A program made the translations under genes and the position numbers. The notes under the pieces were generated by a model. It ran no database searches, was not told the DNA's origin, and was given only the letters and a program-made list of their open reading frames with translations. Below, in pieces: positions 1 through 23,022 of a DNA stretch of 25,272 nucleotides (position 1 is the stretch's first letter; every line of letters starts with the position of its first letter). The stretch covers positions 1-25,272 of the IMG/VR virus record IMGVR_UViG_3300025543_002977; one strand, written 5' to 3'. Source of the DNA: a virus.

Positions 1-2922
1 GGTGGTGACACTGACTGGATGACTAAGGTTAAGAACGGTGAAGAGATCACAGACGGTGATACCGACTTCTTCATCGACTTATTACTTGGACGTACAGCTG
101 AGACAAAGGTTACACCTGCTGGTAAAGCTGAGCAACCTAAGGTTCGTGTAAGCAACCCCGGTGGCGACTGGCTGGCTGGTAAGCAGAAGTATGCAGCTGA
201 GGCACGTGCTAAGTCTGAGCCCGGTACATACGAAGCTAACTTAGGTAATGGTGCTACAACTGGTACTATCTCCGCCACACCCCTTGACCCTAAAGCTCTT
301 GCCGATGTGGCTGGAGCTATGGGTGAGGAAGCCTTCCGTGAGACTGGTGAGAAACTCACTCGTCTTGAAGCTAGTATAGCTAAAGAAGGTTACAAGCCCG
401 ATGCAATCCTGATTCACGTACGTGAAGACGGCGTACCTTTCGTAGTAGAAGGCAACCACAGGTTAGCTGAAGCTATCAAGAGTGGCCGTAAGTCTATCGA
501 CGTTGAGATCCAGTACCGGAATGGTGCTGAGGAAGCCGATGGTCTGCTTAAACCGGGTAGCCTTCCGGTGGCTAAAGCTGATACACCAGCTGGGGAGTTG
601 GAAGTTCCAGCCCTCAAAGGCCTAGCACAGCTTCTGCAAGAAGGTGGTTACTTCTATACCAAGCGTAGTGAAGACGACAAGATGTCTAACTGGCTTGCTG
701 ACTTCATGAAGGAAGAATTAGACCAAGCCGATATTGATGGTATCATGTCAGCATTAGGTGATGCCCTGGGTGTCAAGGTTAAAGGTGGTGTAACACCCGA
801 AGCCTTCGGCGATGCTTTCGCTAACAAGATGAACGCAAGTGCTCGTAGCATGAACAGTGTTATGCAGGTTGCTAAGCAACTTGATGTGAACGTAGCCGAC
901 TTAGATATTGGTAAGTTCCTTGAGGAAGCTCTTGGCCTTAACCTTATTGATGACATCATCTTGAAGAAGGATCGTTTCAAAGGTAAAGGTGCCGTTGCTG
1001 CCAACATCTCCGAGACTCAGAACAAGTTTATCCGTACACTTGTGTCACACCCTTCAACCTCTGCACTCAACGTATTAGGTTACGGTACAGCTGCTGGTTT
1101 AGACATCGCTACTGACATAACAATGGCCCTGTTCAAAGGTACTCGTGGTACTCTCCAGTCCGTGCTTGGTTATGCAGATGATGGTGCCAAGAACATCTAT
1201 GTTGCTAAACAACTACTCCTAGCCTCTAAAGATCGTGTTAAGTTCGCACTGGACGCAGACATGACCTACGCGGCTTATCGTAGTGCATTGGAGCGTAACA
1301 CAGGTGCTCTCGACAAGCTGAACCGTACCCTCTCTGGTGGTGTTGAAATATCTAATACAGTTGAGCAAATGGCTAACCTAGGTGGCCGTGCTGGTCTAGT
1401 GCAGGACAAAGCGGATACAATCCTAAACCATGTTCAGACTGCAACCTTTGTACACGCTCAGGACGCTTACACTAAGTCTCAGGAGTACGTGGGTCAAATG
1501 AACAAGATGCTTCGTACTAAGTTTGGTAAGAGCTGGAATGAGTTCTATACAGACCCTGACGCTACTAAGATCATGGCGTCTCAGGAGTACAAGCAACTAG
1601 AGATGGACGCTGTTGCGGCCACTATGGTGAACACCTTCTCTAAATCCTATAAGGACGGGACTAAGTTAGGGGAGCTCGCAGGCTTTATTGAGGATGCACG
1701 TAACATCCCTGGTCTAGGTTTCATGGTACCCTTTGGTCGATTCTTTAACAACACCATCGACTTCGGTATCAAGAACACCCCACTGCTTAACTTTGCTGCT
1801 AAGGCTACTGGTAAGTACGCAGACAAATCCTACGAAGAGCTTCTTGCCCGTGGTACAGTTGTTACTGGCCTCGTGTGGTCTCTTGCACAGGATGAGGACG
1901 AGAATCGCCGTATGGGCTTAGGTTTATATGATGAAGTGATTGATGGTCAAGTTGTGTCACAGCAATACGACTATCCTATCTCCTTGTTTAAGGCAGCTGC
2001 TCGTGTTATCTCGTACCGTATGGCTGGTGAAGAGGTACCTGCTGAGATCATTACCCAGATCGGTAAGGACTTCGGTGGTGGCGGTCTTACACGTAACCTC
2101 AACAAGACTACAGCTGAGTTCGCTGACTTCGGTGCAGCCATCTTGGCTGGTGAACTTGAGGCAGCCGGTGCAGAAGCTGGTGTAATCATATCTGACATCT
2201 CCTCTCAAGCCTTGAGTGGCTTCTTACGTCCACTTGAACCTATCGACACAGGTATTGCTATCTTCGCTGGTATAGACCAGAGCCCTAAGGATGTAGCACA
2301 AGGTAATAAGTTCGTAGGGGACTCCCTGCGGTACATTGACACCACCACCAACTTCTTTCTAGGAAAAGGTGATGCACCTCTAAAACAAGGTAGTGCCACA
2401 GGTGAGATGGCTCAGCAGTCTACTAAGAACCTTGGTGTACGTACTGTTCAGATGACCAACACACAGCGTCTCATGAATATGCTGGGTCTCGATCAGTGGT
2501 CCATCAACTCCGGCCTGTCTAAGGACAAGAAGCTGATGATACCTGAGGCTGTCAATGAGTACCAACGTCAGGTGTACGCAGTTATTGAAGACTGGGCTAC
2601 CACAAAGATGGAGAACACTGCCTTCCGTAACTCCGATGGTAAGACACAGCGTATGCTGTGGGAGGATCAAGTCAAGAAGGTAACTCAGGAAGCTAAGTTC
2701 ATGCTTGTTGCTGACTATGATGGACCACAGAGCACGTTGCGTGACCAGTATGACATCATGTCTAAGTTCAAAACTACTGAAGTGAGTGATGGGCTTGAGG
2801 CGCTGGGATTCGATAAGACCATAGGTGAATTGACCTTGGCTGAGATATCGTTACTCCGCTCACAGCTTGAGTCCGTCGAGTACATAGACCGGATGAACAT
2901 CGACGAGAATGTGTATCAATAA
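1..2922 (+). CDS. Large virion protein with ParB-like domain, 5'-partial
   Basis: The frame is open from base 1, so the 973 visible residues are the C-terminal part of a longer protein. The first ATG (base 19) has no convincing ribosome site and is probably internal. Residues about 95-175 resemble the ParB/sulfiredoxin N-terminal fold: a helix, the strand AILIHV, then VVEGNHRLAEAI with a GNHR signature near residue 151. The remaining 800 residues are mixed helical and Ala/Gly-rich, with a hydrophobic patch around LNVLGYGTAAGLD, and no enzyme motif that I recognise. It is the only rightward gene and ends against the leftward gene block. Large internal or ejected virion proteins of podovirus-like phages look like this, but the role is inferred from size, orientation and style. 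Alternatives are a structural polyprotein or a DNA-ejection protein. Confidence 0.6.
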   Translation, partial: GGDTDWMTKVKNGEEITDGDTDFFIDLLLGRTAETKVTPAGKAEQPKVRVSNPGGDWLAGKQKYAAEARAKSEPGTYEANLGNGATTGTISATPLDPKALADVAGAMGEEAFRETGEKLTRLEASIAKEGYKPDAILIHVREDGVPFVVEGNHRLAEAIKSGRKSIDVEIQYRNGAEEADGLLKPGSLPVAKADTPAGELEVPALKGLAQLLQEGGYFYTKRSEDDKMSNWLADFMKEELDQADIDGIMSALGDALGVKVKGGVTPEAFGDAFANKMNASARSMNSVMQVAKQLDVNVADLDIGKFLEEALGLNLIDDIILKKDRFKGKGAVAANISETQNKFIRTLVSHPSTSALNVLGYGTAAGLDIATDITMALFKGTRGTLQSVLGYADDGAKNIYVAKQLLLASKDRVKFALDADMTYAAYRSALERNTGALDKLNRTLSGGVEISNTVEQMANLGGRAGLVQDKADTILNHVQTATFVHAQDAYTKSQEYVGQMNKMLRTKFGKSWNEFYTDPDATKIMASQEYKQLEMDAVAATMVNTFSKSYKDGTKLGELAGFIEDARNIPGLGFMVPFGRFFNNTIDFGIKNTPLLNFAAKATGKYADKSYEELLARGTVVTGLVWSLAQDEDENRRMGLGLYDEVIDGQVVSQQYDYPISLFKAAARVISYRMAGEEVPAEIITQIGKDFGGGGLTRNLNKTTAEFADFGAAILAGELEAAGAEAGVIISDISSQALSGFLRPLEPIDTGIAIFAGIDQSPKDVAQGNKFVGDSLRYIDTTTNFFLGKGDAPLKQGSATGEMAQQSTKNLGVRTVQMTNTQRLMNMLGLDQWSINSGLSKDKKLMIPEAVNEYQRQVYAVIEDWATTKMENTAFRNSDGKTQRMLWEDQVKKVTQEAKFMLVADYDGPQSTLRDQYDIMSKFKTTEVSDGLEALGFDKTIGELTLAEISLLRSQLESVEYIDRMNIDENVYQ

Positions 2923-3380: not shown

Positions 3381-4025
3381 TTAATAAGTTTGAATGATGT
3401 CATCGATGATACCATGTTTCTTACATTCTTCAGGGGTCAACCATTCATCAGTTGGGTGGAGTAGATGCTTACGGATGTATGTCTCTGACTTCTTAGTACA
3501 CTTCTTGTAGTGTTCGATCATACGTGAACCTGCCATATCGAACTCCTTGAACATAGCTTGGAGTTCATGCTCTTTCCCACGGGAACCCCAAGAGAACTGG
3601 TGTGACATAACAGAGGTGTTGTGTGTCAGTAGACGACGATCACCTGCCATAATCGTCAGGACACCGCAGGAGGCTACGAGACCTTTACCGATAGTGACTA
3701 CTGGGATCTCCGACATCATCATAGCATCGATAAGGTGGAAGGCTGAGTGTACTGAACCACCTGGGCTGTTGATAATCAAGGTAAGTTGCTCGGGGCGTAC
3801 TTCCTCATCCATCAGGTTGTACTCGTATATGGCTGCAACGAGAGGCATGATCTTCTCTTGGTCGAACTTGTCAACCAACATCAGGATACCGTTCTCCCGT
3901 AACATAGCACCCGGTGCTGGCATGGGCTCAGGAGCCTTCACCTGACAGGGGCATACTGCTGGTGCCGCTACTTCCTCTTTCTTAGAGGGCTTCTTTGCGG
4001 ATGATGTGAGTAGTTGATTAAGCAT
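3381..4025 (-). CDS. clpP: ClpP-family serine protease
   Basis: This is a ClpP-fold peptidase of 214 aa. After a 40-residue Lys/Pro-rich N-terminal extension containing CPC (25-27), the ClpP core follows: IINSPGGSV (84-92), the nucleophile motif GLVASC with Ser119, MSHQ with His142, and an Asp (Asp193) before WLTPEECKKHGIID, which matches the FMSAEEA..GLID region of ClpP. The Ser-His-Asp triad is therefore intact. ClpP normally degrades substrates with ClpA/ClpX. No ATPase partner is in the window, so it could work with a host unfoldase, or act as a prohead-type protease as ClpP-fold proteins do in some phages. Start: GAGGAG lies before the ATG, which overlaps the dehydrogenase stop by 8 bases. 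The pairing with an amino-acid dehydrogenase suggests linked proteolysis and amino-acid use (inference). Confidence 0.85.
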   Translation of the reverse strand: MLNQLLTSSAKKPSKKEEVAAPAVCPCQVKAPEPMPAPGAMLRENGILMLVDKFDQEKIMPLVAAIYEYNLMDEEVRPEQLTLIINSPGGSVHSAFHLIDAMMMSEIPVVTIGKGLVASCGVLTIMAGDRRLLTHNTSVMSHQFSWGSRGKEHELQAMFKEFDMAGSRMIEHYKKCTKKSETYIRKHLLHPTDEWLTPEECKKHGIIDDIIQTY

Positions 4026-5043
4026 TTAGTCTCTCCTCTGCCATTTTGTTGGCAACTTCTTGAGGGGTGATTCCCTCGGAACGTGATGTAGTTAAGATGT
4101 CAAACGTCTTATGTCTGATGTTAACTAACTTACGGAATACATCAGGGTGTTTCCAGCTTAGATCCTCGTAGTCATCTGATACGATGATAACCCCACCGGC
4201 ATTAGCTAGGTAGTCTGGTACTGCGATGATACCCTTCTGCATGAAGGAACGCTCTAGTTCCACACTAGGTATCTGGTTGTTAGCCCCTCCGCAGACGATG
4301 TTACCAGAGGACAACTCGTTGAAGGCGAACACGTTAGCTGTACCGCCTAGAGCACAAGGTGCATAGACGTCAGCCATGCCTAGTCGTATGGCCGGGGATT
4401 CTACACTACATGCCTCGTAGTTCATACGTACTGCACCTTCTGTAGTCTCGTTGACATCTGATACAATCAGCAGACTAACGTCTCGGTGGATGTAGTTGGC
4501 TAGGCGTTTACCTACCTTACCTAAACCCTCTATGACTACAACAGCCTCTGAGGGGTTCCTGCCCTGGAAGTCGAGGGCCCCTAGCATCGCCATGTAGACG
4601 CCGTATGCTGTAGCGAACCCGCTGTCCTCAGCCATGTTCTGACCATTAACGAACTTAGTCAACTTAGCTAAGTGAGCTACCTCTTCCAAGCCTGTCCCAA
4701 CGTCCCCTGCTGTTATGTAGACCTCACCATCTTTGTTGATGTAGTCCATGACCTCAGCGAACTTAGAGAGTGTCGTTGCATCAGCTACCTTGGAGTCGAT
4801 GGTAGCTTTACCACCACCAAGGTTAAGCCCAGCTAAGGAGTTCTTATACGTCATACCCTTGGCTAGGTTCAAGGCATCCTGAAGTTGATGATCCTGTGAA
4901 GAATATGAAGTAACCCGACAACCACCTAAGGCAACGCCAAGGGTGATGTTGTGGATAGCAACAATAGCCCGGAAGCCATCGTTATCTGTAGCTTCAACTA
5001 CTCTGTGGTAGCCGTCTACTTGTATGTCCATATAGTTTAACAT
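4018..5043 (-). CDS. Leu/Val/Phe-type amino-acid dehydrogenase
   Basis: This is a Glu/Leu/Phe/Val dehydrogenase-family enzyme of 341 aa, slightly shorter than bacterial leucine dehydrogenase. Known members oxidatively deaminate a branched-chain or aromatic amino acid to the 2-oxo acid with NAD+. Visible motifs: GGCR (40-43), GMTYKNSLAGLNLGGGKA with the substrate and catalytic lysines Lys67 and Lys79, ITAGDVGTG with Asp114, a Rossmann GLGKVG (173-178), APCALGG, GANNQI and PDYLANAGGV. All are hallmark positions of the Leu/Val/Phe branch rather than GluDH. The key residues are intact, so it is probably active. Start: AGGAG lies six bases before the ATG. It is the first gene after promoter P2 and is coupled to clpP. 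This is an auxiliary metabolic gene; substrate specificity cannot be read from the sequence. Confidence 0.88.
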   Translation of the reverse strand: MLNYMDIQVDGYHRVVEATDNDGFRAIVAIHNITLGVALGGCRVTSYSSQDHQLQDALNLAKGMTYKNSLAGLNLGGGKATIDSKVADATTLSKFAEVMDYINKDGEVYITAGDVGTGLEEVAHLAKLTKFVNGQNMAEDSGFATAYGVYMAMLGALDFQGRNPSEAVVVIEGLGKVGKRLANYIHRDVSLLIVSDVNETTEGAVRMNYEACSVESPAIRLGMADVYAPCALGGTANVFAFNELSSGNIVCGGANNQIPSVELERSFMQKGIIAVPDYLANAGGVIIVSDDYEDLSWKHPDVFRKLVNIRHKTFDILTTSRSEGITPQEVANKMAEERLNA

Positions 5044-5054
5044 ATGTCTCTCCT

Positions 5055-5088
5055 AAAAGATATGCCCCAATGATAACACACTGGGGCA
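5055..5088 (-). terminator. Terminator-like hairpin overlapping P2
   Basis: Minus-strand TGCCCCA/TGGGGCA (5082-5088 with 5063-5069, 12-base loop) is followed by TATCTTTT. The loop contains the P2 -10 box. The predicted P2 start (about 5063) is at the downstream edge, so only read-through RNA from the SbmA-like gene can fold it. Confidence 0.6.
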
Positions 5089-5098
5089 CCTGGGTCAA
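5070..5098 (-). promoter_or_regulatory. P2: sigma-70 promoter
   Basis: Minus-strand TTGACC (5093-5098), a 17-base spacer and TATCAT (5070-5075), 12 bases after the stop of the SbmA-like gene. It would transcribe the dehydrogenase and clpP. It shares the CTTGAC core with the other promoters. Confidence 0.7.
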
Positions 5099-6088: not shown

Positions 6089-6202
6089 CTATTCCCTTTC
6101 TGCTAGGTATGTCTTGAACGCTTGCTTAGCACTTACCCGGTTGAGGTTGGCGTTGGCGTTACGAAACTTAATGTATAGACGTCTTAGTTGCTTACGTGTC
6201 AT
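6089..6202 (-). CDS. 37-aa basic peptide
   Basis: This small frame (MTRKQLRRLYIKFRNANANL...) is strongly basic and predicted helical, with no membrane segment. It starts inside the 3' end of the two-TM gene (11-base overlap, AGGA upstream) and ends four bases before the SbmA-like gene. The tight fit between two genes of the same operon supports it. Function unknown; it may bind nucleic acid or an acidic partner. Confidence 0.55.
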   Translation of the reverse strand: MTRKQLRRLYIKFRNANANLNRVSAKQAFKTYLAERE

Positions 6203-6638
6203 TTGACTTAGTCCTTTCTGTTGATGGGCCTCTCCAGTCGTCTAAGACTAGACCTGGGTCACTCTTACTGTCACCTTGGGGTTCGAAGGAACCCTCCTGA
6301 GGTATGCCCTCTTCGCCCTTCTCCTTAGCCTCTTCCAGCTTCTGAGCTGTATCTTGGCTATATGGGAAGATATAGAGTCGATGTCCTTTCTCCTCTATCC
6401 AGACCCATAAGGTGATGGCGTCCCCTGCTGAGACGTGGTGGACGTATACAAACCCCCCAGGAGGGTACTCCTCGATGGGCTTACCTAGCTGGGAACTGTA
6501 ATGCTCTTGTGTAACAACCCCCAGCAGCACAGTGGCTGTGAGAGCTGTTGCCTTTATCAGTTTACTCAGTGACGAGTAGAAGATAAGGAAGACCACAAGA
6601 GCACTTAGTAGTAGGTAGACTGAATAGATCAGTATCAT
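6192..6638 (-). CDS. Hypothetical two-TM membrane protein of the envelope module
   Basis: The 148-aa protein has two N-terminal hydrophobic helices (about residues 2-20 and 29-43), then a small soluble domain (FVYVHHVSAGDAITLWVWI...) that looks beta-rich, and a charged, Glu/Gly/Pro-rich C-terminal tail. No family recognised. The ATG overlaps the stop of the MotB/ExbD-like gene as ATGA, so the two are probably translated together, and a structural partnership with the channel is plausible (inference). Confidence 0.7.
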   Translation of the reverse strand: MILIYSVYLLLSALVVFLIFYSSLSKLIKATALTATVLLGVVTQEHYSSQLGKPIEEYPPGGFVYVHHVSAGDAITLWVWIEEKGHRLYIFPYSQDTAQKLEEAKEKGEEGIPQEGSFEPQGDSKSDPGLVLDDWRGPSTERTKSNDT

Positions 6639-7231
6639 GGTGCTCTCCTCGGTTGTCTTAGTTTAACTTGGATGTCAGAGTGTTTATCGACTACCTTACC
6701 GTCTACGACCCTAAAGGCTAGGACTGTACTCTCTTGCCTATGGGCAACCCTTACCTCTGTCTCGTACTGGACACTGTAAGGTTGAAGGTCAGTGACACGA
6801 ATATTAACATCCTCATAATCGGGTGTCAGACCTGGCCTAGAGTAGAAGTGTATGTTGACTACATAGTCGCCATTGGGTAAAGCCGTCATAGTAGTGATTT
6901 CATAGTTACGTGTGATCTTTACAACTTCACCATTAACTATAAATGTATCTGACTGTGCTCCGATATCATCCCGCTTCAAGGTTATATACCCGTTACTCTT
7001 GTTGGAGTAGTATACGATCTTGTTGTCGGGGCCTCTAACGTAGAGGTCGATGTCGGTGAGACTGTTGTCATCCCAATCCATCTCGACCATGAGTCGGACA
7101 GGTGGGTCAACCACCCCGTTCTTTGCTATCGGGTTAATAAGTAGGAACGCGATAACGAACAAGCTGGTAAACCCTACAAGTAAGTTGAACAGTAGATCAA
7201 CGAATGCTAGGTTACTGCTGTACTTTCTCAT
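6635..7231 (-). CDS. MotB/TolR/ExbD-like proton-channel subunit with beta-sandwich domain
   Basis: The 198-aa protein has a short cytoplasmic start and one TM helix carrying an acidic residue: FVDLLFNLLVGF with Asp12, the position and context of the proton-carrying Asp in MotB, TolR and ExbD. The rest should be periplasmic. Residues about 45-180 form a predicted beta-sandwich whose WDDN..TDIDLYVRGP segment recalls DUF2135/YfaP-type domains. No OmpA-like peptidoglycan-binding motif is visible. It follows the MotA/ExbB-like gene by one base (SD GGAGAG), as is usual for such pairs. The role would be to convert proton flow into movement of a periplasmic partner. The channel assignment is fairly firm; the periplasmic domain function is unknown. 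Confidence 0.75.
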   Translation of the reverse strand: MRKYSSNLAFVDLLFNLLVGFTSLFVIAFLLINPIAKNGVVDPPVRLMVEMDWDDNSLTDIDLYVRGPDNKIVYYSNKSNGYITLKRDDIGAQSDTFIVNGEVVKITRNYEITTMTALPNGDYVVNIHFYSRPGLTPDYEDVNIRVTDLQPYSVQYETEVRVAHRQESTVLAFRVVDGKVVDKHSDIQVKLRQPRRAP

Positions 7232-7232
7232 A

Positions 7233-7652
7233 TTAGCTCTCCAATATAACTAACTGTAACTTCAACCAGAGTGAGGCTACGAGGCCCACAAGAGACGTTA
7301 CAAGGGCAGTAGACATACCTGAGGCCAACGTACTAATAGCCTGAGTCATACTCTCTACGGAGCTTGTATCGATGTCTCCGAGGCTCTGACCAAGTACCAA
7401 GAGGAACCCGAATAGTGTACCAACCATACCAATAGATAGTACTGCATCAGAGGCAAACCAGTGTACGTCTGTTTGTTTGAAGTACATAGTAGCTGTCGTC
7501 ACAAGACTGATGCCAATGATAAGAAATGTTAAGTATGTACTATCAGCATTTAAAAGTAATTGGCCTAGTCCAAACTTGAACTGACCTATAGCTAGTGCGA
7601 GTAGGCCTGTGTTGACCACAAACCACCAATGCCAGTGTTTCCTAGTGCTCAT
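7233..7652 (-). CDS. MotA/TolQ/ExbB-like proton-channel subunit
   Basis: The 139-aa protein has four predicted TM helices (about 8-24, 41-58, 70-90 and 112-132). The last two carry the family signature: GMVGTLFGFLLVL (75-87), then ISTLASGMSTALVTSLVGLVASL (106-128), equivalent to the TM2/TM3 core of TolQ/ExbB and TM3/TM4 of MotA that surrounds the partner's Asp helix. It is compact: the long cytoplasmic loops of MotA and the tail of Zorya ZorA are missing. Strong AGGAGG seven bases from the ATG. It is encoded immediately upstream of the MotB/ExbD-like gene, as expected for a proton-motive-force-driven stator complex. Confidence 0.8.
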   Translation of the reverse strand: MSTRKHWHWWFVVNTGLLALAIGQFKFGLGQLLLNADSTYLTFLIIGISLVTTATMYFKQTDVHWFASDAVLSIGMVGTLFGFLLVLGQSLGDIDTSSVESMTQAISTLASGMSTALVTSLVGLVASLWLKLQLVILES

Positions 7653-7653
7653 C

Positions 7654-8304
7654 TTAGTGTCCTCCTTGTAGCAGGTATAGGCGGAGGGGGTCTGCTACTC
7701 GCTCGTACATCCAGTGCTCTGGTAACTCTACGAAGTCGGTAAAGGCTCCGTCTGACATCTCTAGTAACTTAAGATCATCTGAGTTTAAGATCAAGAATGT
7801 CTCAGCGTCAGTAACCTGTGATACAATGTACTGCAGCTGGATAGAGTAACCCATGTTGAAGAGGTATGCTGCATTGATTGTACCGAAGAACTGACCATTC
7901 TTCATACCTTCACTGAAGGTACCCTCTTGAGTAGACCAAGCTACGTGAAAGCCAAGGTTACCAGATAGTACCTTAGAGGTGCCACCTATAAATGCTATAG
8001 CACAGGCACTCAAGCAGGTGCCTGCGTCACCAACAATGGTCAGTATACCGTTACGGTTAATCGTATAGCCAAGTGAGTAACCCTCTAAGGCGTTACCTCC
8101 GTTAGAGTTTAAATAGAGGGTGGTGATACCTGTTGAGGTTATCAGTGACTGCAGGATATTAGCGTCACCCCTCTCGATCTCACCCTCAAGACGTATAGCA
8201 TTGCCGTCGTGTGTGAAGTTAGCAGACTTAGCGGGGGCTGCCAATATTAGTAGGAACAGTAGACATGCTACAACTCCTAGCATTAACCATATATTCTTTA
8301 TCAT
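7654..8304 (-). CDS. Periplasmic ClpP/crotonase-fold protein
   Basis: The 216-aa protein has an N-terminal signal peptide or anchor (hydrophobic residues 5-22, likely cleavage after AKSA near 28). The ClpP-like fold follows: YLNSNGGNALEG (64-75), GTCLSACAIAFIGG with candidate nucleophile Ser99 flanked by Cys97 and Cys101, and GFHVAW with His120. The order and spacing match the exported ClpP-like proteins grouped as COG3904. A third catalytic residue is not certain. It would act in the periplasm as a protease or as a non-catalytic scaffold. It overlaps the DUF3310 gene as ATGA and sits directly before the proton-channel pair, so it may be the periplasmic effector or partner of that complex (inference). 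Confidence 0.75.
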   Translation of the reverse strand: MIKNIWLMLGVVACLLFLLILAAPAKSANFTHDGNAIRLEGEIERGDANILQSLITSTGITTLYLNSNGGNALEGYSLGYTINRNGILTIVGDAGTCLSACAIAFIGGTSKVLSGNLGFHVAWSTQEGTFSEGMKNGQFFGTINAAYLFNMGYSIQLQYIVSQVTDAETFLILNSDDLKLLEMSDGAFTDFVELPEHWMYERVADPLRLYLLQGGH

Positions 8305-8630: not shown

Positions 8631-8992
8631 ACCTTTTCCTCGTTTAGTAGATATTGCACAGCCGCTAGTAGTTTACCTACGTCATCTTGGAAGGCCCCTA
8701 GGCCTACATTACAAGACTGACAAAGCAACCCCCTTACGTGACCTCCATCGTGACAGTGATCTACTGAGAGCTCCTTTACTTTCCCGTAGACTACTTGGGT
8801 TTCCTGCTCACCGCAGATGTGACAGCGCGGGTCTGAGTAAAGGTTGTCGTACTCCTCGTCCGTGAGGTTGTAGATACGCATGACCTTCTGTCGGCGTAGG
8901 CAAGGCTTGCAGGAGCGCCGCAACTTCCCGCTATCTCTAACATAGAACTCGTCTTGCACCTTTTCTTGTTCGCACTTGTTACATTTTATCAT
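8627..8992 (-). CDS. Recombination endonuclease VII-like nuclease
   Basis: The 121-aa protein belongs to the T4 gp49-like endonuclease VII group of HNH/beta-beta-alpha-metal nucleases, which resolve branched DNA. The sequence shows CxxC pairs (Cys57/Cys60 and Cys91/Cys94), the catalytic VDHCH (77-81) and the RGLLCQSCN block (87-95). An additional N-terminal pair of cysteines (4/7 with 28/31) probably forms a second zinc site. The ATG at 8992 is chosen over an upstream start because GAGGAG lies before it and it overlaps the phoH stop as ATGA. With endonuclease I also encoded, the phage has two candidate junction resolvases. Confidence 0.85.
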   Translation of the reverse strand: MIKCNKCEQEKVQDEFYVRDSGKLRRSCKPCLRRQKVMRIYNLTDEEYDNLYSDPRCHICGEQETQVVYGKVKELSVDHCHDGGHVRGLLCQSCNVGLGAFQDDVGKLLAAVQYLLNEEKV

Positions 8993-9696
8993 ATCTTCTC
9001 CTCGTAGAATACTCTGGTCCACATGGCGCAGATGTCTGATCGTACAATATCATCTAATGTAAACTCGACAATAGGTACGGGCATCATATGCTTCTTAGCT
9101 AGATGTGTGATCTTAGTCAGACCATCACCTTCCTTTAAGTCTGTTTGCTGGATATCACCGTTAAGCACGATAGTTGAACCTTCGCCAACCCTCGTGAGTA
9201 GCATCTTAAGTTCATGAGTCGTGATGTTTTGAGCTTCATCGCATATGATGAAAGCGTCATCGAATGAACGTCCACGCATTAACGCGAGAGGAGCAGTCTC
9301 TATGTTGCCATTCTTAATACCTGTCTCAACCGCACCCTTTCCTAAGTGCTTAGTCAAGACATCCAATACTGGCAGTGCCCAAGGGGCTACCTTCTCCCCA
9401 AGATCACCAGGGAGGATACCAATGTCCTTGCCAACTGAGATCATTGGACGGGTGATGACTATCTTATCAATCTCCTTCAGGGTGTACAGGTCAGCAGCCA
9501 TGGTGGTGGTGACATACGTCTTACCAGTACCGGCTGGTCCAAATACGATAACCTGCGAAGACGATGATATAGCTTCAATCAGCTTCCCTTGACTATCTGT
9601 CTTGGGTACAATACCAGAAGTCTTCTTAGCAGCGGCACCCTTGTACGTTGTTTCACGTTTAGTTTTAGCTGGTCGTTTGGGTTTCTGCGGTGACAT
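8989..9696 (-). CDS. phoH: PhoH-like ATPase
   Basis: The 235-aa P-loop protein has Walker A GPAGTGKT (53-60), ITRPMISVG, Walker B AFIICDEAQN (148-157) and the NGDIQQTDL sensor segment, all typical of PhoH. PhoH is common in marine phages. Its role there is not settled; the domain is related to superfamily 1 helicases, and an RNA-linked function has been proposed. The N-terminal 30 residues are Lys-rich. Start: AGGAAAAGAC before the ATG. It is the first gene after promoter P3 and heads the operon with nucleases and the envelope module. Confidence 0.9.
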   Translation of the reverse strand: MSPQKPKRPAKTKRETTYKGAAAKKTSGIVPKTDSQGKLIEAISSSSQVIVFGPAGTGKTYVTTTMAADLYTLKEIDKIVITRPMISVGKDIGILPGDLGEKVAPWALPVLDVLTKHLGKGAVETGIKNGNIETAPLALMRGRSFDDAFIICDEAQNITTHELKMLLTRVGEGSTIVLNGDIQQTDLKEGDGLTKITHLAKKHMMPVPIVEFTLDDIVRSDICAMWTRVFYEEKI

Positions 9697-9716
9697 GTCT
9701 TTTCCTATTCTATATT

Positions 9717-9745
9717 AAAAAGGGAGGAACCTTTCGGAACCCCCC
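9717..9745 (-). terminator. Intrinsic terminator after nrdJ-grx, overlapping P3 start
   Basis: Minus-strand GGGGGG (9740-9745), TT, CC, GAAA tetraloop, GG, TT, CCTCCC, then TTTTT (9717-9721). The stem has a U-U internal loop and one G-U pair. P3 is predicted to start near 9740, inside the 5' arm, so P3 transcripts would lack that arm and escape termination, while RNA from the RNR operon would stop. Confidence 0.8.
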
Positions 9746-9746
9746 A

Positions 9747-9776
9747 ATAGTAGCACACTTAGTAGTGTTATGTCAA
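9747..9776 (-). promoter_or_regulatory. P3: sigma-70 promoter for phoH operon
   Basis: Minus-strand TTGACA (9771-9776) overlaps the last codons of the glutaredoxin gene, with an 18-base spacer and TACTAT (9747-9752). The spacer carries a short dyad, ACACT-ACTA-AGTGT, that could be an operator. Confidence 0.65.
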
Positions 9777-9992
9777 GCTCAAGTGTTCAATGAGCTCAGT
9801 ATATCCTCCGATATGTTTGCCATTACCGTCGAAGATCTGTGGTACTGTCTTAAGTCCAGCCTTTTTGACTAAGGTCAGTGCCCACTTTGTCTTAGTTAGC
9901 TCAACCTCTGTGAAGGCTAGGCCAGCTACACTTAGTGCTGACTTAGCTTTCTGACAGAAGGTGCAGTTGTTTGCTGTTATAACTGTGTACAT
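9768..9992 (-). CDS. Glutaredoxin
   Basis: A 74-aa glutaredoxin/NrdH-type thiol reductant. It has the redox site CTFC (Cys10-Cys13), the cis-proline motif TVPQIF (54-59) and GGYTEL near the C-terminus. It overlaps the RNR stop as TAATG and should recycle the C-terminal cysteines of that enzyme. The stop codon region also contains the -35 of P3. Confidence 0.9.
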   Translation of the reverse strand: MYTVITANNCTFCQKAKSALSVAGLAFTEVELTKTKWALTLVKKAGLKTVPQIFDGNGKHIGGYTELIEHLSLT

Positions 9993-11887
9993 TATACTAA
10001 GTCCACAATCTCACAGCTGTCTCCAGAACATGCAAGTGTCTGGCTACCGGCAGTGTTATCCTCACTCTCGTACTCAGATAACTTGGACCAGTCGATACTC
10101 TTAGGCATAACAGACTTCAGGGTGTTGTAGTCTGTCCTGGAGCACTCTTGGTACGGAGCTTGTTGGTAGGTGTGTTCGTTAAATGGTAGGAACGATACCC
10201 CTGACATCTCGTCGAAGTGCTTGTAGACGAAAGCACCAACCTCAAACCATTCATCTGACTTGACATTGATTGTGACAGAAGGTTTATGCTCACACCAGTG
10301 CCGTTGGTAAGCTAACCACATCTCCAACTGCTCGATAGCCGATACGTCTGAAGTAACTACAGCCCCTCGTGGTGCTTTCTGAGGGAAGCTGAATACAACA
10401 GTAGTATCGGGCTTCATGGCGCAAGGCTCGTTGGGTACACCTTGGTCGATCATGAACTGAGTCAGAGGGTCTTTACTATCGCCACGTACCGTACGGATAT
10501 AGTAAGGGCTGTGACGTGCGTGGATTCCTGACGCAGAGTCAACAAGCTGTGAGACGGTTCCACTTGGTTTAACGCAGCTGATAGCAGTAGCCTGTGGGAT
10601 ACCAAGTTTCTTAGCCCAGACGCGGTTGGTCTCAACAGCTATAGCCTTGAGATGCGCCAATGTCTGATCGAGACCCTTGTTCTTGATAGTCATCAACTTG
10701 TTGTCCATGATACCAGTAAGTGATACACCAAGTAGACGTTCCTCCTCTGTGTTACGCTGCCAAATCTTACGCAAGTATGGAAACTTGGTATAGGAAGACT
10801 GTAAGGTACCTAGGATAGTCGCTAGGCGTACCTTCTCAGAGAGGGTATCGATGGTGTCTGTCTCACGTACAACGCACTCGGTTAGGTTGCAGAACTGATT
10901 CGGGCGGAGGATGATTTCACTACACGGGTTGGTCCCGAAGTCGTAGTTAGGATCACGGCGACCGTTCTTAGCTGCTTGCTTCTTGGAAGCTTGACGATTG
11001 AAGATACCACGTTCACCGGAACCGGACTCAACCAAGGCTGTCCACTCCCGCATAAACGATACACTGTCTGGCTTCTCTGTGTACGATACAGAGTTGTTAG
11101 CCAAAGCACGTTGTGGGTCATTCTCCCACCAAGCACCTGACTTAGCGTGACGCATACGGTCATCACTTAAGTTGGACAGAGAGATCATAGCTGAACGGCG
11201 TACACCGCCAACTACAACAACTTCACCGATCTTACACATGATATCGTGGCACTCAATAGATGAGAGCTTACGATCCTGTGCATTCTTGAAGGTACGGATA
11301 GTGAAGTCGAACAACTCGATCAGAGGAAGCGGGCCAGATGCACGTCCACCGAAGGTCTTGAGAGGTGCACCAGCTGGGCGTACCCGTGAAGTGTCCCACG
11401 TTGGAATCTCACCGCTGTACAAGAGGGCAATGAGTTGACGGAGTGCCTTAGCCCAACCCTCTTTGCTGTCCTTAACAACGATGTTTGTCTCACTAGGGAA
11501 GAGCTGTGGTACGTCAGGTAGCTTAGTTACGAACTGGCGTTCAACTGAGAACCCAACTCCTGTTCCACAGAGGAGGATGAACATGGCCTCGTCAAAAGAC
11601 TTGATGTCATCAACAGGTAGGTACGAACAGTTGTACATACATGTGTTATCACGCTCTGCCGCTGGGCCAGCAGTCATAAGGGAGCGCATACTAGGCATAA
11701 CCTCTAGTCCAAGGATGGCTTGCTCTAGTTCGTACTTGGTCTTACTATCGACCTTGTCGCCAATGATGTTGTCTGTGAACCGTTCTACTGTCTTATCCCA
11801 AGACTCACGACCTTCTCCTTCGAAGTACTTAGCATAACGTGATTTATGGATAAAGGCTTGGTAGTCAGTCGGTAGTTGATTGCTCAT
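9992..11887 (-). CDS. nrdJ: Class II (B12-dependent) ribonucleotide reductase, monomeric type
   Basis: The 631-aa protein makes deoxyribonucleotides using adenosylcobalamin. Motifs: MPSMRSLMTAG (64-74); Cys87 or Cys83 as the first active-site cysteine; NPCSEI with thiyl-radical Cys322 and Glu324; FCNLTE with Cys333, exactly 11 residues on as in Lactobacillus RTPR (Cys408/Cys419); CVKPSGTVSQ; and the C-terminal reductant pair Cys620/Cys625 (CSGDSC), matching RTPR Cys731/Cys736. It is about 100 residues shorter than RTPR. It needs no NrdB or metal radical subunit but does need cobalamin, and glutaredoxin is encoded just downstream. The start follows GAGGACGCAAG and overlaps the DUF1127 stop as TAATG. 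Confidence 0.92.
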   Translation of the reverse strand: MSNQLPTDYQAFIHKSRYAKYFEGEGRESWDKTVERFTDNIIGDKVDSKTKYELEQAILGLEVMPSMRSLMTAGPAAERDNTCMYNCSYLPVDDIKSFDEAMFILLCGTGVGFSVERQFVTKLPDVPQLFPSETNIVVKDSKEGWAKALRQLIALLYSGEIPTWDTSRVRPAGAPLKTFGGRASGPLPLIELFDFTIRTFKNAQDRKLSSIECHDIMCKIGEVVVVGGVRRSAMISLSNLSDDRMRHAKSGAWWENDPQRALANNSVSYTEKPDSVSFMREWTALVESGSGERGIFNRQASKKQAAKNGRRDPNYDFGTNPCSEIILRPNQFCNLTECVVRETDTIDTLSEKVRLATILGTLQSSYTKFPYLRKIWQRNTEEERLLGVSLTGIMDNKLMTIKNKGLDQTLAHLKAIAVETNRVWAKKLGIPQATAISCVKPSGTVSQLVDSASGIHARHSPYYIRTVRGDSKDPLTQFMIDQGVPNEPCAMKPDTTVVFSFPQKAPRGAVVTSDVSAIEQLEMWLAYQRHWCEHKPSVTINVKSDEWFEVGAFVYKHFDEMSGVSFLPFNEHTYQQAPYQECSRTDYNTLKSVMPKSIDWSKLSEYESEDNTAGSQTLACSGDSCEIVDLV

Positions 11888-20592: not shown

Positions 20593-21222
20593 TTAGCAGA
20601 ACCAACCGGAACACTGACCTGCTGGACCTTGTGGACCCCGTGGACCACGTGGGCCTCGTGGGCCTGTAGCACCGTCTTGACCATCTACACCGTCTACGCC
20701 ATCGATACCGTCAGTACCATTGGTACCATCAACACCATCAGCTCCATCCTGACCGTCAACACCATCGATACCATCGATACCATCTTGACCATCTACACCA
20801 TCACGGCCATCTACACCATCTTGACCAGCAGCGCCCGTGTCACCTTTGGAACCGGTGTGACCACGCTTACCACGCTCACCGTCCTTGCCGTTCTTGCCTC
20901 TATTGCCATCATCACCATCGCGGCCATCTTCGCCGTCCTTGCCGTCTTTCCCATCCTTACCGGCAGGGCCAGCAGGGCCAGCAGGGCCAGTGTTATCTAC
21001 GACTGGGTCATTACCGTCATCTGTTGAAACAAAGATCTCTACCTTCTCACCTGTCTCACAATACCATCGTTGATGGATGACACCGCCTTCAACAGTCCAA
21101 GAGTCGAAGACATAACCCTTGGAACCACAAGCCCACGCAGGAGGGGCGTCATGGGCGAAGGCTGCTGTAGCTGCTGCCATAGTAAGAGCTGTTGTAAGTA
21201 GAGTTGTTTTAATAGTAGTCAT
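20593..21222 (-). CDS. Secreted collagen-like repeat protein
   Basis: The 209-aa protein has a cleavable signal peptide (residues 1-23, ending AFA before His24) and a 55-residue N-terminal domain with Cys32 and Cys54. An uninterrupted run of 41 Gly-X-Y triplets (79-201) follows, then a short tail GQCSGWFC with two cysteines. The triplets shift from Lys/Asp/Glu-rich (GKD, GED, GRD) through GVD/GQD/GID to GPR/GPQ/GPA, which favours a trimeric collagen helix; the terminal cysteines could lock the trimer. Phage collagen repeats are usually in tail fibres, but here the signal peptide and the early-type operon (next to thyX) suggest a protein exported by the infected cell. Function unknown. Start: AAAGGG and the ATG at 21222. 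Confidence 0.85.
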   Translation of the reverse strand: MTTIKTTLLTTALTMAAATAAFAHDAPPAWACGSKGYVFDSWTVEGGVIHQRWYCETGEKVEIFVSTDDGNDPVVDNTGPAGPAGPAGKDGKDGKDGEDGRDGDDGNRGKNGKDGERGKRGHTGSKGDTGAAGQDGVDGRDGVDGQDGIDGIDGVDGQDGADGVDGTNGTDGIDGVDGVDGQDGATGPRGPRGPRGPQGPAGQCSGWFC

Positions 21223-22077: not shown

Positions 22078-23022
22078 TTAATAAAGTTGGTATTGTTGTC
22101 TACCTGTGTAGTAATCCAAGTCTTGATAACTTAGATCAAGTTCTTCACCCAAACCCTGTACTGTAAAGCCGTACTCAAAGAGCAACCCAGCTAGTGTGCC
22201 AGGGCGGTCTATCAGCATCCTTTCAAGTGCATCAATCTCTTCCTGATCTCCGGGTTCTAAAGGAGAGCCCCGTACAGCGCCATAAGACATGTCAAGGTGG
22301 GTAGGGTCTCGGAAGAAGGCTAACGTGTCCCAGCGGGCCGCTATGAGCCTCTCAAGCAGTAGTGAGGCAAAAGCTAAGTCCTGTGACTCCATAGACGTGT
22401 GTTGATCGTAGTAGCCCACGCTTAGGTTGGTGCACTCAGGTACAACGTGTGCATACTCGAGAGAGTCGGTATAGGTGCCATAGGCATCAGCCTTCATAGG
22501 TAAGCCCAAGGCATCTATAAGCGATGTAGCGAATACATCACTAGCAGTACGGCGACCACCTTGATGAGTTATCACACTACCGGTGCCGAACCTATCGAAA
22601 GAGATAACAGCATCAATCTCGATCAACCACGCTGGCCTATCCTCGACCAACCTGCTACTCCCAATGCCTCCGATCTCCTCCGCAGCGTGTGCGACATAAA
22701 CACCTTCGACACCGGCTTCGATCATACCAGCCATGAGCCAAAGCCCCGTGGTACAGTCTGCGCCCAGGCAACTACCTGTCATAGTAGTTATAATATCTCC
22801 TTCGACTTTTAGTGTTTGGATACCCTCCACCTTGTGTACGGTGTCGGTGTGTGCAGTGAAGGCAATGTTAGGTCTCTTGCCTATCACTTTGATATAGTTC
22901 CCATGTTCATCCGGTTTACCGAATATGGGTTCTAGGTATCGTTCACAGAACAGACGCTCTGTCTGACTGTAAGCTGGCCTCATGTATTGGAGCCAGTTCA
23001 CAAGCGTATGTATTGTAGTCAT
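22078..23022 (-). CDS. Zinc aminopeptidase-like protein (M20/M28/M42 fold)
   Basis: The 314-aa protein shows the full set of co-catalytic metal ligands of clan MH peptidases: TAHTD (His58, Asp60), GADC (Asp89), HAAEE (Glu115 as base, Glu116), SFDRFG (Asp143) and DQHTS (His208). The fold region LGADCTTGLWLM is typical. The C-terminal 90 residues are not recognisable. There is no signal peptide, so it should act in the cytoplasm on peptides or amino-acid conjugates. Such peptidases are rare in phage genomes; a role in amino-acid salvage would fit the dehydrogenase and ClpP (inference). The ATG overlaps the upstream stop as TAATG. Confidence 0.8.
   Translation of the reverse strand: MTTIHTLVNWLQYMRPAYSQTERLFCERYLEPIFGKPDEHGNYIKVIGKRPNIAFTAHTDTVHKVEGIQTLKVEGDIITTMTGSCLGADCTTGLWLMAGMIEAGVEGVYVAHAAEEIGGIGSSRLVEDRPAWLIEIDAVISFDRFGTGSVITHQGGRRTASDVFATSLIDALGLPMKADAYGTYTDSLEYAHVVPECTNLSVGYYDQHTSMESQDLAFASLLLERLIAARWDTLAFFRDPTHLDMSYGAVRGSPLEPGDQEEIDALERMLIDRPGTLAGLLFEYGFTVQGLGEELDLSYQDLDYYTGRQQYQLY

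Follow-up and report, generated by a model that had tools for sequence, protein, structure and literature searches.

The window, that is the whole 25,272-base virus record analysed here, is a viral fragment related to the Roseobacter phages CRP-9 and CRP-13, and the host of this marine phage is probably a Roseobacter-type bacterium. The window carries a block of extra genes, among them a predicted amino-acid dehydrogenase gene, inserted where CRP-13 passes from PhoH to the structural genes. The features of this region are:

19 to 2922, plus strand: large phage protein facing the cassette.
3381 to 4025, minus strand: ClpP-family serine protease of 214 amino acids, with a triad (S119, H142, D193) invariant in the phage family.
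4018 to 5043, minus strand: predicted Leu/Val-type amino-acid dehydrogenase of 341 amino acids, with catalytic K67, K79 and D114, NAD-type D196 and pocket L39/A112/V285/V288.
5062 to 5098, minus strand: promoter-like TTGACC-N17-TATCAT element, overlapping a GC-rich hairpin with a T-rich tail behind it, and kept ahead of the dehydrogenase gene of the sister phage L006.
5110 to 6084, minus strand: SbmA/BacA-family peptide importer of 324 amino acids, lacking an ATPase domain.
6192 to 6638, minus strand: small membrane protein hyp148, conserved beside the ExbD-like gene.
6635 to 7231, minus strand: ExbD/MotB-like protein, recognised by position and by an N-terminal helix with an invariant D12.
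7233 to 7652, minus strand: MotA/TolQ/ExbB-type proton-channel protein with a MotA_ExbB domain.
7654 to 8304, minus strand: secreted ClpP-fold protein with a signal-peptide-like N-terminus and invariant S99 and H120.
8989 to 11887, minus strand: nucleotide-metabolism block (PhoH, glutaredoxin, adenosylcobalamin-dependent ribonucleotide reductase) flanking the cassette.

The cassette runs from the secreted ClpP-fold protein through the ExbB-like, ExbD-like and small membrane proteins to SbmA/BacA, the dehydrogenase and ClpP. The large protein that faces it is also encoded in a 58-kb sister contig (L007), which marks the cassette as viral. Elsewhere in the window, a collagen-like triple-helix repeat protein with a signal-like N-terminus (20593-21222, minus strand; Pfam Collagen, 77.8 bits) lies amid the replication genes, and a possible M28-type peptidase (22078-23022, minus strand; E 8e-4, slightly under the curated cutoff) would be a further peptidase of the same phage.

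The original prediction was of an intact dehydrogenase retaining all the hallmark residues of its family, and both points were confirmed. The two ELFV domains of the 341-residue minus-strand frame exceed their Pfam gathering scores (ELFV_dehydrog_N, 66 bits for a cutoff of 25.3; ELFV_dehydrog, 53.1 for a cutoff of 23.4), and the closest solved structures are leucine dehydrogenases, aligned over residues 11-339 (E 4e-54). The 1LEH counterparts of K67, K79 and D114 are K68, K80 and D115, the NAD-binding loop GLGKVG occupies residues 173-178, the PDYLANAGGV motif is present, and Asp196 corresponds to the NAD-type acidic residue Asp203 of 1LEH. Lys67, Lys79, Asp114, Asn256 and the glycines at positions 40 and 41 are invariant among 110 bacterial homologues and 31 viral rows (where the site is covered), the catalytic K/K/D and N256 being kept in every aligned viral homologue, even at about 29% identity. 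The pocket residues Leu39, Ala112, Val285 and Val288 match L40, A113, V291 and V294 of 1LEH, and this LAVV combination is identical in 78 of the 110 bacterial enzymes, which argues for branched-chain aliphatic amino acids as the predicted substrates. The best NCBIfam match was ScyB, an identity that we rejected, the score being 198.2 bits for an equivalog cutoff of 600. The dN/dS values against the two nearest relatives (0.14 and 0.18, NG86 method) are rough because synonymous sites are near saturation, yet both are clearly below 1, and such codon comparisons show purifying selection on the gene. Judged from its sequence, the assignment as an NAD-dependent leucine/valine-type dehydrogenase with intact catalytic residues is thus well supported. 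A distant and divergent viral clade (L039-L051) has Phe, Gly, Val and Ser instead of LAVV, with the Gly at the Ala113 position as in phenylalanine dehydrogenase (PheDH); its catalytic residues are intact and its substrate is probably different.

Homologues of the dehydrogenase were found in at least 49 viral loci or contigs in a scan of IMG/VR, distributed over about 12 genomic contexts. A strong homologue also occurs in 99 of 337 sampled alphaproteobacterial genomes, and among the best 80 matches of a GTDB genome scan the top bacterial identity was about 38%, none exceeding 39%. In the tree, the window copy falls with those of L006, L007 and L009 in an all-viral clade (support 100/99), which L011 and L012 join to form a six-member viral clade (100/98), so that the phage copies do form a clade apart from bacteria, as the original prediction had proposed to verify. 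A single origin of all viral copies was recovered in 48% of bootstraps, and the L033 and L035 dehydrogenases are close to bacterial ones. As regards the criteria for an auxiliary metabolic gene, the dehydrogenase is flanked by phage genes and the 58-kb sister contig has a large terminase. The possibility of host contamination, or of a bacterial fragment present by chance, draws some credit from two unverified records, Pseudomonas phage Y12 (OQ572413) and MT835825, that do carry bacterial-type copies. Against it, the window gene has phage genes on both sides and falls within the all-viral clade, the L007 contig has its terminase, no bacterial copy above 70% identity was found outside prophages, and recent contamination in particular is rejected because the best bacterial identity is so low; we regard this explanation as extremely improbable. 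Evolution of the dehydrogenase within phages is the best explanation of these sequence relationships. The Y12 and MT835825 copies, which group with bacteria at 48-66% identity, were discarded as relatives and probably reflect contamination or misassembly.

Amino-acid dehydrogenases had also been presented as unusual among phage metabolic genes. This part of the prediction stands for cultured phages, INPHARED yielding no credible record with the dehydrogenase (the two unverified ones are bacterial-type and the remaining matches weak), but the 49 IMG/VR loci indicate that the gene is commoner in nature, and its apparent rarity is partly a matter of sampling.

Searches with the ExbD-like and ClpP proteins as probes yielded 59 loci that hold both SbmA and ClpP, reduced to 24 by dereplication. 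The order periClp-ExbB-ExbD-hyp148-SbmA-slot-ClpP recurs in many contigs, and in most of them no gene separates SbmA from ClpP. Where the slot is occupied, it holds the dehydrogenase (window and L007), an M42 aminopeptidase followed by the dehydrogenase (L006, whose contig ends inside the latter), an S8 subtilase whose N-terminus resembles that of a lipoprotein (L179) or, in L258, an HNH-like gene; peptidases and amino-acid enzymes thus make up most of the swappable genes. Of the dehydrogenase contigs, L006 alone has the M42 peptidase. In L011, L040, L043 and L196 the dehydrogenase comes after ClpP; it thus adjoins SbmA and/or ClpP in these four as well as in L007. Altogether it is present in seven of about 26 dereplicated SbmA-ClpP cassettes, the window and L006 being counted; since most lack it, the module does not need it, and by gene content the dehydrogenase is an optional accessory cargo of a recurring phage cassette. 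An independent gain beside the same cassette was considered for L040 and L043, where identity to the dehydrogenase is 34-36% against 63-75% for SbmA, but was not retained, a single clade not being rejected (p-AU 0.064). In another variant, L205 (3218-5249), a ring-hydroxylating-oxygenase-like protein (a weak Pfam match that still exceeds the cutoff) is encoded between the small membrane protein and SbmA.

Among the partner proteins, the importer has an SbmA_BacA domain of 425 bits over residues 7-321 of 324 (profile E 3e-104); it scores under the PRK11098 equivalog cutoff (355 vs 492) and passes that of the PRK12369 'putative transporter' (399 vs 385). A MotA/ExbB family match at E up to 0.01 was obtained for all 24 phage ExbB-like proteins, the window protein scoring exactly at the cutoff. 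For the ExbD-like partner, the predicted periplasmic beta domain (model pLDDT 89.7) found no counterpart among PDB structures (E up to 0.001), and an ExbD-type periplasmic fold was not retained. The secreted protein, modelled at pLDDT 92, had ClpP structures as the top Foldseek matches listed (E 7e-6) and is a probable periplasmic serine protease. The top PHROG match of the other ClpP (3381-4025) is 'head maturation protease', a role that we set aside provisionally because the gene sits in a cassette beside transport and metabolic genes; no ClpX or ClpA unfoldase was seen in the window, and its partner is assumed to be a host unfoldase. The ExbB/ExbD-like pair and the small membrane protein (window 6635-7652; L303, L304 and L305) recur in marine and Rhizobium phages, the pair often lying beside a secreted-type protease.

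The junctions on either side of the dehydrogenase bear on two further claims, that the gene is coupled to ClpP and that it has its own promoter. The first is borne out by an 8-nt overlap of the ClpP start codon with the dehydrogenase end, repeated in L007. The second holds in part. The TTGACC-17-TATCAT element lies in the 66-nt gap upstream of the dehydrogenase and, together with its hairpin, is conserved in the closest relative, L006, although the upstream gene is SbmA in one and the M42 peptidase in the other; the element thus appears to travel with the dehydrogenase gene. On the other hand, promoter-like matches across the region are about as numerous as chance predicts (11 against an expected 9.4), and in L007 the dehydrogenase is preceded by neither the gap nor the element. 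The -10 box of the element sits in the hairpin loop, the GC-rich stem is kept between the window and L006 despite base changes, and similar TTGAC-17-TA...T elements precede several other minus-strand genes.

The link between proteolysis and amino-acid catabolism, at first a guess from one neighbour, was strengthened by comparison across phages. In 28 of 49 viral loci the dehydrogenase has a ClpP-family gene nearby, as against one of 80 control loci fetched from the same collection with a thymidylate synthase (ThyX) probe, the control flanks being somewhat shorter and the loci not independent. Counted by lineage (about 12, grouped by eye from tree and context), the proportion is about 5/12 against 1/80 (Fisher p ~1e-4). 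The L014 and L032 groups are large contigs with a B-family polymerase, in which a ClpP of the same family is about 6 kb from the dehydrogenase, and the L039-L051 group has the order dehydrogenase, Toprim protein, ClpP, ThyX; in all three the pairing occurs with no ExbB/SbmA part nearby. With these, ClpP-family genes accompany the dehydrogenase in five lineages, and in a sixth (L020) a trypsin-like peptidase lies upstream of it and an M24 peptidase downstream. The SbmA importer and the swappable peptidases of the same cassette point in the same direction, and the genomic linkage of the dehydrogenase to peptidases is well supported by these gene neighbourhoods. Two other arrangements were observed: in the phage contig L052 (4036-10008) a PrkA kinase, a 459-aa gene and SpoVR directly precede the dehydrogenase, and an M17 leucyl aminopeptidase (L290, 1412-2761) is encoded on a large phage contig that also has ClpP and an ExbB/ExbD pair.

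These neighbourhoods also bear on the idea that the periplasmic protease works with ExbB/ExbD and SbmA as an envelope device (for phage exclusion, lysis timing or the handling of peptide antibiotics), the dehydrogenase being a hitchhiker in a permissive slot. Rhizobium phages do possess the protease-ExbB-ExbD-hyp148 unit without SbmA, ClpP or dehydrogenase, and the slot of L258 accepts an HNH-like gene; the pairing with ClpP away from the ExbB/SbmA part (the L014, L032 and L039-L051 groups) and the purifying selection on the dehydrogenase speak against a mere hitchhiker, and we consider this explanation, one of the two main rivals of the scheme proposed below, unlikely.

The dehydrogenase, apparently functional, neighbours genes for protein cleavage and peptide uptake, and with it the virus may be able to convert host protein to fuel and nitrogen during infection. 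We thus propose, with moderate confidence, that peptide import and proteolysis feed oxidative deamination by a phage-evolved leucine/valine-type dehydrogenase carried as accessory cargo of the cassette. The secreted ClpP-fold protease (joined in a relative by a secreted subtilase) would cut envelope or periplasmic protein during infection, and SbmA, driven by the proton gradient, would import the resulting peptides. Cytosolic ClpP, with an M42 aminopeptidase in another relative, would break these peptides and host proteins down to amino acids, from which the dehydrogenase would release 2-oxo acids, NADH and ammonium by deaminating the branched-chain ones; the products could serve energy, nitrogen supply and nucleotide synthesis. 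Secretion, the transported substrate, the direction of the reaction and the benefit to the phage are the parts of this scheme that we infer.

The direction matters, since leucine dehydrogenases are established to catalyse both reactions at one active site, and the residues are intact here; the phage enzyme could instead make Leu, Val and Ile for phage proteins from branched-chain 2-oxo acids, ammonium and NADH. Its neighbours (ClpP, M42, M24, trypsin-like peptidase, SbmA) would free amino acids, not make 2-oxo acids, and no branched-chain synthesis genes are found among the annotated flanking genes, which renders the reverse reaction quite improbable.

A different role for the importer has also to be weighed. 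In the window, L006, L007, L040 and L043, a few genes separate the cassette from an upstream gene for a class II (B12) ribonucleotide reductase, and this close neighbour makes a serious rival of the view that the BacA-like protein, energised by ExbB/ExbD, imports cobalamin for the phage reductase, the dehydrogenase being unrelated cargo. The BacA-related Rv1819c does carry B12 in mycobacteria, but it contains an ATPase domain of its own and groups separately from BacA/SbmA (PMC3603451). Unlike this sole B12 precedent found in the family, the phage protein is of the ATPase-free SbmA type; moreover, no such reductase was found in five cassette records (G002, G358-G361), which are possibly fragments, and the peptidases would be left unexplained. 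Despite the proximity of the reductase, we hold cobalamin import to be rather doubtful.

Returning to oxidative deamination, a broader version can be put forward only tentatively: several kinds of marine phage might encode every step that leads from protein to fuel (a secreted protease, a proton-driven unit in the envelope, importer, cytosolic peptidases, branched-chain deamination), by which the virus would feed on host or neighbour protein while replicating, and the dehydrogenase would have become associated with ClpP-type proteolysis on more than one occasion. Most known phage metabolic genes concern photosynthesis, carbon, phosphate, sulphur or the supply of nucleotides. In the PHROGs library the dehydrogenase has no match, the main text of a survey of viral metabolic genes across the global ocean makes no mention of leucine or branched-chain dehydrogenases, and papers on the nearest cultured groups, the HMO-2011-type and CRP-9/13 phages, mention neither leucine dehydrogenase nor SbmA; a search of open-licence literature returned no relevant paper on the dehydrogenase or SbmA in phages. 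We conclude that the dehydrogenase is a phage metabolic gene, whose module we did not find described in the open-licence papers searched. If such a conversion of protein into ammonium, NADH and 2-oxo acids is real, some phages use host protein besides host DNA and RNA, and nitrogen release in the sea would also be affected. The cassette is compact and can be tested gene by gene.

Compared with known systems, the phage enzyme shares with leucine dehydrogenase (EC 1.4.1.9; 1LEH, PDB 8hpe) a full-length alignment, the catalytic K/K/D, the NAD-type Asp and the LAVV pocket, but is distant in sequence (about 38% to the best bacterial homologue) and differs near the active site, where E114 is replaced by G113 and T134 by N133. 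ScyB tryptophan dehydrogenase and PheDH belong to the same superfamily. The PheDH pocket has Gly in place of Ala113 and Leu in place of Val294, residues that are absent from the window dehydrogenase. The importer belongs to the same SbmA_BacA family as the E. coli SbmA peptide antibiotic transporter (7p34) and is shorter (324 vs 406 aa). CRP-9 and CRP-13 are the closest cultured kin by DNA polymerase (61-63%); CRP-13 shares the RNR-glutaredoxin-PhoH order, but after PhoH and one small gene it continues into structural genes, with neither cassette nor dehydrogenase. In Rhizobium phage 16-3 (p036-p042), where SbmA, ClpP and dehydrogenase are not annotated nearby, a secreted-type protease and ExbB-like, ExbD-like and hyp148-like genes stand in a row as in the cassette, the protease being trypsin-like and unrelated to the ClpP-fold protein of the window, which indicates that a protease beside the ExbB/ExbD/hyp148 unit is a recurrent arrangement.
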